Positions 4,219 through 7,200 of a stretch of DNA of 64,000 bases are shown piece after piece (the stretch's first letter is position 1; the number at the start of each line of letters is the position of its first letter). Source of the DNA: Ricordea florida (taxonomy: Eukaryota; Cnidaria; Anthozoa; Corallimorpharia; Ricordeidae). Location: positions 46,211,281 to 46,275,280 of the forward strand of contig OX453273.1 in the NCBI GenBank assembly GCA_949710005.1, in the 5' to 3' direction. The notes beneath the pieces are model-generated. The model was not told the origin of the DNA and did no database searches. It saw nothing but the letters and a program-made list of their open reading frames with translations. The translations under genes and the position numbers were made by a program.

Positions 4219-7200
4219 ATAATATTATTATTATCATTAACATTATTATTATTCAATATTGCCATGTTAGTAGTGTAAGTAGTGACTTGGTATGTTGCAT
4301 TGTACATAAGTACTTTAAGGGTAAATTAGTGTAGTTTGGTGTAACTTGAAGTATCAAATTAAAGGTCTTTACTTTCATGATATTTCCATGATATTTCAGA
4401 GAATTTCGCTCTGACGAAGGGCTAATGCTTGAAAAGTGAACACCCCCTTTCTTTTACCTTACAGTGGTACAAATAACTTAATCAACTTGTTTGATTATCC
4501 CAATTTCTTGTGTTCCAATTCACCACAGACACAGCACCAGTTTCTTTAAAAACTACCCCACAATACGTTTTAATGATAGCCAACTGACTGCCTTTAAGTC
4601 AAGTATGAATACTAAATAGATGCACCTGTACATCAATGTAATTTCTCCATGTATTGCAGTTTTCTGCAACTGCTGTGTAATTCACCTATCAAGAAAAAAA
4701 ACTGTTTAATAATTGCAAGGCAATACATTACAGTTAGTGGATCAAGGTAAAATAGGCAGTGCACTAGCTTGTAGAGCAAGTGGCACAAAATCTACTAACA
4801 CATTTTTACAGAGTTCTATGTACTTTCTTTGATGTAATGAGGTCCTTCTACTTACATCATTTCACAGACTTTCAAGAAAATGAGCAAAATATCTCCTAGT
4901 AATTCACAATGAAATTTCAGTTTGACAAGATTTTTCAAATAAAACAACAAATGGTTGATGTTTTTAACCCAAATATAAACTAAATGAGAAAGGCTTTGTT
5001 TACAAGTGCAAATTAACCTTGCATAACCAAATTTGATGTCACTTGTTCACTTGAGAACCAAATTAGTTGAATTATACTTTTACAGAATGGTTTCAAAGAC
5101 AGAAAGAGTTTGCAACTCCATTTGTCTTTTTGAAGAAATTTTACCTTCAGGAGAAACATCAATTATGTGAATACTGCATAGACCAAATCTTGAAACAATT
5201 AGTAATGGTAATCAGACTGAGTGGAGTCCAATTTGGTCTGTAATCACACAAGTGAATAACAAAATCGAATGACTGCGCAGCGGGTGTCCGATTTGTTTAT
5301 AATCACGAGTACGACTGCAGATTGAATTGGAGAACACAAAGTTTTATTACCAATTAATCATAACTGTAACAAAATTTGTGATATATAAACTTCTTGTTTC
5401 TTCAAAACACATGAAATGCAGAGACTTTTGTGCTAGCGGTGAAAAAAAAAAGCCACTTAAGCGCACGCATGATGGTGTGTACTGTCCAATTATTCAGGCA
5501 TGACGCGTAATGTCCTATAGCCAATCAGATTTGAGAATTTTGTTATAGTTATGATTAACACTTAAACTGACCTCACTTTTGTATTGGTCAATAAAAATAT
5601 GAAAAAAGAACTTGAGTCATGCTGACCTCATACTTGATCAATAACACATATTTAAGCCATCTGTCCAAACAGATATTAACATGAGCAGTACCTTTAGTCC
5701 AGGTACCTTTATCTGACCCTTTGGCCATCCACAGCTATAGAGTATTGGCCTGCCTGTAGCACTCAGAGCTTTACCAAATCTTGGATAACCCACATCAAAT
5801 GTTCTTGGATCTGCCCAACATGTGTCAAGTTTAAGGTAATCAGCCCCCCAACTGGCAAATGTCTGCCAAGAGAAGAAGGGAAATACAGTACCTTAATACC
5901 ATGTTTGACTTGGTATACAGGCCATTCACAGCTGAGTACAATAGGCATCCCTGTTGTATTGAGGGCCTTAGAGAACTTGGGATAACCAAAAGGAAAATTC
6001 TTTGGATTTGCATAACAGCCATCCACTTTAAGGTAATCAACACCCCAGCCAGCAAATGTCTGCAAAAAAGAAGTAACAGCTCCCATACTCACTCATCTTC
6101 TGAGCATGTCTACTACTACTGAAGATCAAGAGGCAGTGTAGCAGAGTGGTAAGGGTGCAGGACTTAGTTTGTTTCCTGTCCCCACCACTAGCTGGATTTG
6201 TAACACAGTCATCATGAGTTTCATGTCTTCAACCATGGTTGTAAATAACCATACTAACCTGCCTACCAACAGCTGGAATTTTTAACAACATTTATGTTCT
6301 ATTTGCAATAGTTATTTTGCTATTTAGCTTAGTCAAACTAGCACCTGTGTGCTATACTGTCACTCAGTTAAAATAAAGATTCTTTTTTTTTCACTTCATT
6401 GTGCTAATCTTAATTTAACAAATGAGATGTCAACAACAATTGCTGTCTGTGCCCAGTACACTTAGCAGTATCCTATTTTATTCATTTTATTAGCGTTGCC
6501 TGTATTCTTCTCAAGAGCGTGGCTAAGGGTACAGCAGCATCGCTCACTAACCTCTACAACAACTGCATAGAGCAATGTGAATGGCCTAATGCGTGGAAAA
6601 TGGGTGAGTGGACACCAGCGTTTAAGAAGGGAGATAGACAGGATACTAAAAGCTACCGCCCCATCACCTCCCTAATCGCAGTTGACAAAATATTCGAACA
6701 GCTACTTTGCAACCAGGTGACATGCCATTATGATAAAACGCTGTATTACAGAATGACAGCGTACAGGAAGAAACACAGCTGCGAAACAACACTACTTGCC
6801 CTGATAGAAGATTGGAAACTGGCTGCTGATACAAAGCAACTTGTTTATATCCTATCTACAGACATGAGCAAGGCCTTTGACAGCTTGAGCCATTCCTTGA
6901 CGACTAAGAAGCTGGAAGCTTACGGCTTTGGAAGACGTTCTCTCGGACTAATGCGATCATTCTTTGAGAACAGACAGAACAGAGTAAAACTGGGCGAAAT
7001 CACTAGTGATTGGATAAAGATGAAACGTGGATGTCCCCAGGGATCATCCTTCGGACCCCTACTTTGGAACATGTTTCAAAATGATCTGCCATCACATGTA
7101 AAGGACGCAAACTTAACTATGTACGCTGACGACCATCAAATGTACGCTAAGGGAACGGACCACGAAACAGTTGGACGCAGCTTGAAAATTCATGGCAGGC

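Follow-up and report, generated by a model that had tools for sequence, protein, structure and literature searches.

The window, by which we mean the whole 64,000-nucleotide stretch of DNA analysed here (G000:C2:46211281-46275280; the genome searched comprises 537.8 Mb in 48 contigs), carries a complete GH27 gene of 14 coding exons with AG/GT borders, which we call gene A (Table 1). Spliced self-alignment recovered the same 14 exons. The seventh exon is present in two versions, 7a and 7b, and the product is full-length with either of them: 412 amino acids with 7a and 413 with 7b. Both isoforms cover the whole Pfam model Melibiase_2 (478.5 bits for the 7a isoform and 465.5 bits for the 7b isoform, cut-off 23) and include the C-terminal beta-sandwich (Melibiase_C and Melibiase_2_C). 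The top PDB matches of the 7a isoform are two NAGA entries, 1ktb (488 bits) and 3h53 (451 bits), which we take to be the chicken and human enzymes, and alpha-galactosidase A (1r46, 430 bits). Gene A is best explained as coding for a GH27 alpha-galactosidase of the lysosomal type. Retroelement relics were noticed by eye in its introns 6 (window ~6480-8000) and 3 (~10740-12000).

Table 1 GH27 genes and exon 7 features. Positions are those of the window unless a contig is named.
Feature	Position	Strand	Remarks
Gene A exon 1	16880..16979	minus	start codon and signal-peptide-like region (by eye)
Gene A exon 2	16708..16777	minus
Gene A exon 3	15439..15520	minus
Gene A exon 4	9292..9384	minus
Gene A exon 5	8867..8903	minus
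Gene A exon 6	8608..8672	minus	contains C142
Gene A exon 7a	5892..6059	minus	168 nt, phase 0/0; nucleophile strand, K168-D170-C172, N192 sequon, SCEWPVY
Candidate 7b branch point TATTAAG	5892..5898, branch A 5893	minus	overlaps 7a donor
Gap between 7a and 7b	5863..5891	minus	7a donor (GTACTG), then directly 7b pyrimidine tract and acceptor
Gene A exon 7b	5692..5862	minus	171 nt, phase 0/0; K168-D170-T171-C172, sequon lost, SCGWPKG
Gene A exon 8	4626..4685	minus	contains C223, R227 and acid/base D231
Gene A exon 9	3532..3633	minus
Gene A exon 10	2835..2909	minus
Gene A exon 11	1417..1481	minus
Gene A exon 12	922..973	minus
Gene A exon 13	127..243	minus
Gene A exon 14, then stop codon	G000:C2:46210642-46210791	minus	just beyond window edge
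Gene B (GH27 paralog)	17907-37821	minus	NAGA-type SCSWPAY; directly upstream of gene A, in tandem
Gene B doubtful first exon	39720-39798	minus
Gene B single exon 7	34535..34702	minus	SCSWPAY (NAGA type); comparator without a second copy
GH27 loci C, D and E	G000:C2 45.03-45.08 Mb and 14.26 Mb		Ser/Ala at 203/206 in all three

The genome holds at least five GH27 loci, formally a lower bound in that the searches score the best candidates only, and gene A is the one of the five with a pair of the 7a/7b type. A genome search with 7a returned six places (E up to 0.001), namely 7a, 7b and one exon 7 in each of the four other loci; with 7b it returned seven (E up to 10), the seventh at chance level (E=3.2). 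The GH27 domain search gave 32 exon matches, all inside the five loci on the contig of the window. In gene B, by our reading, exon 5 ends at a GC-AG intron, and a tandem repeat array with a unit of ~60 bp was seen by eye within one of its introns (window ~30870-32120).

Elsewhere in the window, a single open frame of 1765 amino acids with retroelement features (46813-52110, minus strand) looks BEL/Pao-like by eye. Two similar minus-strand stretches at 53314-53997 and 63220-63855 match the Pfam family of APH phosphotransferases and are apparently duplicated genes, an open stretch on the plus strand has ankyrin repeats (Pfam; 42563-43333), and an open frame on the minus strand (56985-58163) consists mostly of a repeated unit of ~30-40 residues. 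Elsewhere in the genome, 57 of the 61 exon matches to the GFP family fall on one contig (G000:C11) and form a large fluorescent-protein gene cluster; a GFP-like protein joined from three exon pieces has among its closest PDB entries the LEA ancestor series, Azami Green and Dronpa, names that we take to be coral-derived, and the genome is apparently that of a stony coral.

Exons 7a and 7b lie where the preliminary description had placed them, in phase 0 at both ends, with AG/GT flanks, free of stops and exactly 29 nt apart. The identity of about 60% estimated there is borne out by identical residues in 33 of 56 aligned codons (59%), and the motifs were also as described: SCEWPVY in 7a versus SCGWPKG in 7b, and DGC versus DTC. 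Both exons matched one region of solved GH27 enzymes, and the NAGA entry 1ktb is the top PDB match of each (E=1.3e-17 for 7a and 3e-16 for 7b); exon 7 presumably spans barrel strands 4 to 5. The two are thus adjacent, homologous, 168 and 171 nt long, equal in phase and stop-free, as a mutually exclusive pair should be. When 59 random substitutions were placed in 7a in 20,000 trials, 15% of the sequences were stop-free and none kept 33 or more identical residues (maximum 29). The 40-nt flanks of the two exons share 17/40 bases upstream and 18/40 downstream, mostly splice signals.

The 29-nt gap had been called too short for an ordinary intron, and the family's own introns agree: the 56 reliable introns in the five GH27 genes measure at least 85 nt, with a median of 718. 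The aligner had given 69 introns, from which the splice statistics omit intron 5 of B, whose boundary was wrong, intron 1 of D, all those below 60 nt and whatever follows 11 in C, 12 in D and 10 in E. Because the 60-nt filter would make the 85-nt minimum circular, we inspected every intron shorter than 85 nt among all 69. There were two. E has one of 37 nt at its 5' end, which is an aligner artefact because an open frame that starts at an ATG continues across it; the unreliable 3' part of C has one of 11 nt, which sits beside a 5-nt 'exon' and was likewise taken as an artefact. Splicing has been reported for human introns 43, 49 and 56 nt long (PMC4463651), and the gap is shorter than even the 43-nt ones. 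A donor-to-branch-point distance below 50 nt has been used as the steric criterion for mutually exclusive exons, and applies to 57 (9%) of the human clusters (PMC5740500).

The splice sites of the pair, previously described as good, are so at the acceptors of both exons and weak at both donors. The 7a acceptor outscores all 55 family acceptors, with a score that only 0.03% of AG dinucleotides on the minus strand of the window reach; the 7b acceptor stands at the 93rd percentile of the 55 (0.3% of AG as high). Both donors read AAG/GTACTG and stand at the 18th percentile of 55, with 10.6% of GT on this strand scoring as high. A further in-frame donor of 7b, after 5707, reaches 5.41 as against 4.36 after 5692 and would shorten the exon by five residues; being slightly better, it may be where 7b ends. 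Weak donors combined with strong acceptors fit regulated exons.

The best candidate for the branch adenosine of 7b lies 31 nt before that exon, within the last two bases of 7a, in a TATTAAG that is not a strict yUnAy match and was found with ad hoc weights. Joining of 7a to 7b would be blocked because 29 nt leave no room for both the 5' splice-site and the branch-point complexes, and the overlap of the candidate branch point with the 7a donor would add to this block. If the gap is retained, the result is a composite exon of 368 nt that is out of frame, with a stop ending at nucleotide 297, 71 nt before the donor, and which would therefore be exposed to decay. If both exons are skipped, the frame stays intact and the nucleophile is deleted. 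Three barriers to joint inclusion are thus present in the anatomy: the 29-nt gap, the overlap of the candidate branch point with the 7a donor, and the frameshift of the composite. Across all the splice outcomes considered, an intact enzyme would be able to contain only one of 7a and 7b, and their splicing is likely mutually exclusive.

Exons 7a and 7b differ at 59/168 nucleotides, with 0.25, 0.27 and 0.54 differences per site at the first, second and third codon positions. Compared pairwise, the two give an omega of 0.131, and a neutral omega=1 fits significantly worse (2dlnL 28.7). Since this signal could stem from 7a alone, we fitted branch models to six exon-7 sequences. Estimates of branch dN/dS without a time constraint were set aside: synonymous change is saturated and the fit is degenerate, with no power. 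There, the free omega of 7b runs to 12-20 on a tiny branch and is not distinguishable from 1 (2dlnL 0.2-0.3). Giving 7b an omega of its own improves on a single one by 2dlnL 2.7-4.5 (three topologies), contrary to a reading of constraint. A duplication makes the two copies equal in age, so we tied the neutral lengths of the 7a and 7b branches, on the assumption of equal neutral (synonymous) change in both copies since duplication. Under this equal-time model omega of 7b is 0.174 and 0.182, or 0.162 and 0.164 when 7a is also free (two topologies), and omega=1 on 7b is rejected in both topologies and both settings (2dlnL 21.0, 18.9, 21.1 and 19.3). If the two copies accumulated synonymous changes at the same rate, we conclude that 7b has been retained for the protein that it encodes. 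The near-saturated divergence between 7a and 7b suggests that 7b has been conserved over the long term.

Relatives were also sought more widely. Scans of viral contigs with 7b and with the family alignment gave 7 and 21 pattern matches, respectively, and no relative among them; the scan of genome contigs gave 223 pattern matches with 99 relatives, the best 80 of which are bacterial by title. The sequences of paralogs C and E that entered the trees and the residue counts stop at GRRVS and FAIWAIMAA, respectively, and 8 of the 80 bacterial rows served as the outgroup in the trees. In the tree of the rest of the gene, human GLA and the two NAGA sequences cluster (92/93), separately from gene A and its paralogs, so that Glu203 of 7a may have been inherited or acquired afresh. 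A protein tree of exon 7 placed 7a, 7b and the paralogs in no resolved order.

Turning to the active site (residues numbered as in human GLA, counts over all of the best 80 of 99 bacterial relatives), both isoforms carry W47, D92, D93, Y134, C142, K168, D170, C172, C202, W204, P205, C223, R227, D231 and D266. The nucleophile D170 and the acid/base D231 are present in both isoforms, in the four paralogs and in 80/80 bacterial rows (best 80 of 99). C172 and C202 lie in the swapped exon 7, C142 (exon 6) and C223 (exon 8) in constant exons; presumably they pair as C142-C172 and C202-C223, as in GLA. Eighteen exon-7 columns do not vary among eight other animal sequences; exon 7b keeps 15 of them, among which are K168, D170, C172, C202, W204 and P205, and changes the other three (V164A, G171T and N192S). 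This makes it the most divergent sequence, since each of the eight others breaks 0-2 of the columns that are constant in the rest. The third change removes the N192-x-T/S sequon, which is kept in all eight other animal rows; the other two sequons of gene A are retained. In GLA, we take N192 to bear a lysosomal-targeting glycan. The three glycans of GLA serve mannose-6-phosphate transport (PMC5478728).

The changed positions in 7b include 171, 203, 206 and 207. Residues 203/206/207 are E/V/Y in 7a and G/K/G in 7b, E/L/Y in human GLA, S/A/Y in both NAGA sequences and in paralogs B, C and D, and S/A/D in E, where Asp replaces Tyr at 207. In the best 80 of 99 bacterial rows, position 203 holds E in 75 rows, I in 4 and Q in the remaining one, with no G; position 206 is never K, and position 207 is G in 5, the alignment being less sure there. 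G203 is thus absent from the 8 other animal rows and from these 80 bacterial ones. As neither G203 nor K206 is seen in the best 80 of 99 bacterial GH27 rows, an activity of the 7b product would be without direct precedent here. Human GLA excludes GalNAc owing to Glu203 and Leu206, and Ser and Ala are required there for it (PMC8791529); NAGA that carries both Ser188Glu and Ala191Leu is ~40-fold more active as a galactosidase and no longer acts on the GalNAc substrate (PMC5478728). Exon 7a has half of the GLA-type signature of Glu203 and Leu206 (Glu/Val) and 7b none of it (Gly/Lys), and the NAGA-type Ser/Ala is absent from both and present in paralogs B, C, D and E. The 7a pocket (Glu/Val/Tyr) should be galactose-type and the four paralogs should be GalNAc-type or dual; the 7b pocket, judged by its residues, would be neither. 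The suggestion that one gene encodes two sugar specificities holds up in part: with positions 203, 206 and 207 among the changes in 7b, a different specificity is plausible, and the two products likely differ in it, but a switch between galactose and GalNAc finds no support, because 7b lacks Ser/Ala and Ser/Ala occurs in four separate paralogs.

The reading that we favour, and consider likely, is an ancient exon duplication with exclusive splicing of 7a or 7b into two catalytically equipped products with different pockets. The exon of gene A that runs from the nucleophile strand through the C2 pocket would have been tandemly duplicated long ago, and the spliceosome would insert one of the two copies, 7a or 7b, between exons 6 and 8. 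Both products would retain the catalytic machinery and the two cysteines expected to bond with the constant exons; the 7b product would have an open, basic pocket (Gly/Lys/Gly) and one N-glycan sequon fewer. The probable output of gene A is thus two enzymes that differ in the shape of the sugar pocket. Alternatively, 7b may be spliced in to give a protein with weak or no hydrolytic activity, which would act as a binding or regulatory partner within the homodimer or be sorted differently, since Gly203/Lys206/Gly207 take away contacts to the ligand and the N192 sequon is lost. The location of changes at pocket positions 203, 206 and 207 and in the sequon agrees with this, as does the count of G203 (0/8 other animal rows and 0/80 of the best 80 of 99 bacterial rows), but 7b keeps K168, the cysteines and the nucleophile, along with D92/D93 and the acid/base of the shared exon 8, which a dead enzyme need not do, and we hold this reading to be possible though rather doubtful. 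A true specificity switch between galactose and GalNAc seems unlikely: positions 203 and 206 set this very choice between human GLA and NAGA (PMC8791529, PMC5478728) and a glycine at 203 makes room, yet 7b has Lys at 206 and no Ser/Ala, and four Ser/Ala paralogs are already present.

Exon 7b could also be a decaying duplicate, never or rarely used, and its weak donor, the loss of the invariant V164, G171 and N192 and the failure to reject omega=1 in the unconstrained branch test would all be expected of one. We nevertheless find this improbable, given the lack of any stop or frameshift despite 59/168 nucleotide differences, the strong acceptor (93rd percentile) and the rejection of omega=1 under equal time. 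It is more doubtful still that the pair acts mainly as a quantity switch, in which the stretch from the 7a acceptor to the 7b donor is defined as one 368-nt composite exon and part of the transcripts is destroyed: the composite is indeed out of frame, with its stop 71 nt before its donor, but the protein-level constraint on 7b in its own frame would be left unexplained. Within the favoured reading of two equipped enzymes, a long shot is that 7b confers a new specificity, with the open C2 pocket and its lysine taking alpha-galactosides that are acidic at C2, and that the loss of the glycan sorts this form away from the lysosome. If so, candidate substrates would include the 2-O-sulfated galactose of algal or mucus polysaccharides, and one splice choice would set both which substrate is cut and where.

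Exon pairs that rewrite the active site of an enzyme are already known, as in coq-2 and CYP4F3, and are rare. Exons 6a and 6e of coq-2, in C. elegans and other rhodoquinone-making animals, are of equal length (134 nt) and mutually exclusive, with support from RNA-seq and exon removal (PMC7434440). Like 7a and 7b they are an internal pair in the enzyme core, and the alternative coq-2 exon alters substrate-adjacent residues and is tied to a change of substrate; the enzyme there is a prenyltransferase, whereas that of gene A is a GH27 hydrolase with its nucleophile in the swapped exon, and the pair of gene A is known from DNA alone. In the coq-2 paper, single splice events that change catalytic-core specificity are called rare, with few examples known, and CYP4F3 is given as another alternative-splicing switch of substrate specificity (PMC7434440); CYP4F3 is a cytochrome P450 with tissue-specific exon choice, and would share with gene A a splicing switch of specificity. 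The gate-domain exons of ACSL6 (PMC1543647) and ketohexokinase (PMC11332825) may be noted alongside these exon-pair enzymes. A literature search on alpha-galactosidases and glycoside hydrolases returned no such pair in titles and abstract openings; what appears to be new here is the enzyme family, GH27, and a swapped exon that carries the catalytic nucleophile. The pair also shares with human mutually exclusive clusters (PMC5740500) the steric criterion of <50 nt, homologous neighbours in the same frame and a frameshift on joint inclusion as a second lock, although those clusters were validated by junction reads and this one is read from its anatomy.

The swapped exon holds the nucleophile in an enzyme class in which 203 and 206 are known to set specificity, which makes prediction and assay direct, and public RNA-seq of stony corals is plentiful. 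Tomasic et al. 2010 (cited in PMC5478728) reportedly interconverted human GLA and NAGA by two residues, and the PDB entry 3lx9 has SCSWPAY in GLA. As in human GLA and NAGA, specificity in gene A would be set by positions 203 and 206; the human enzymes keep their two pockets in two genes, whereas gene A would keep its two pockets in two exons, the second of them of neither type.
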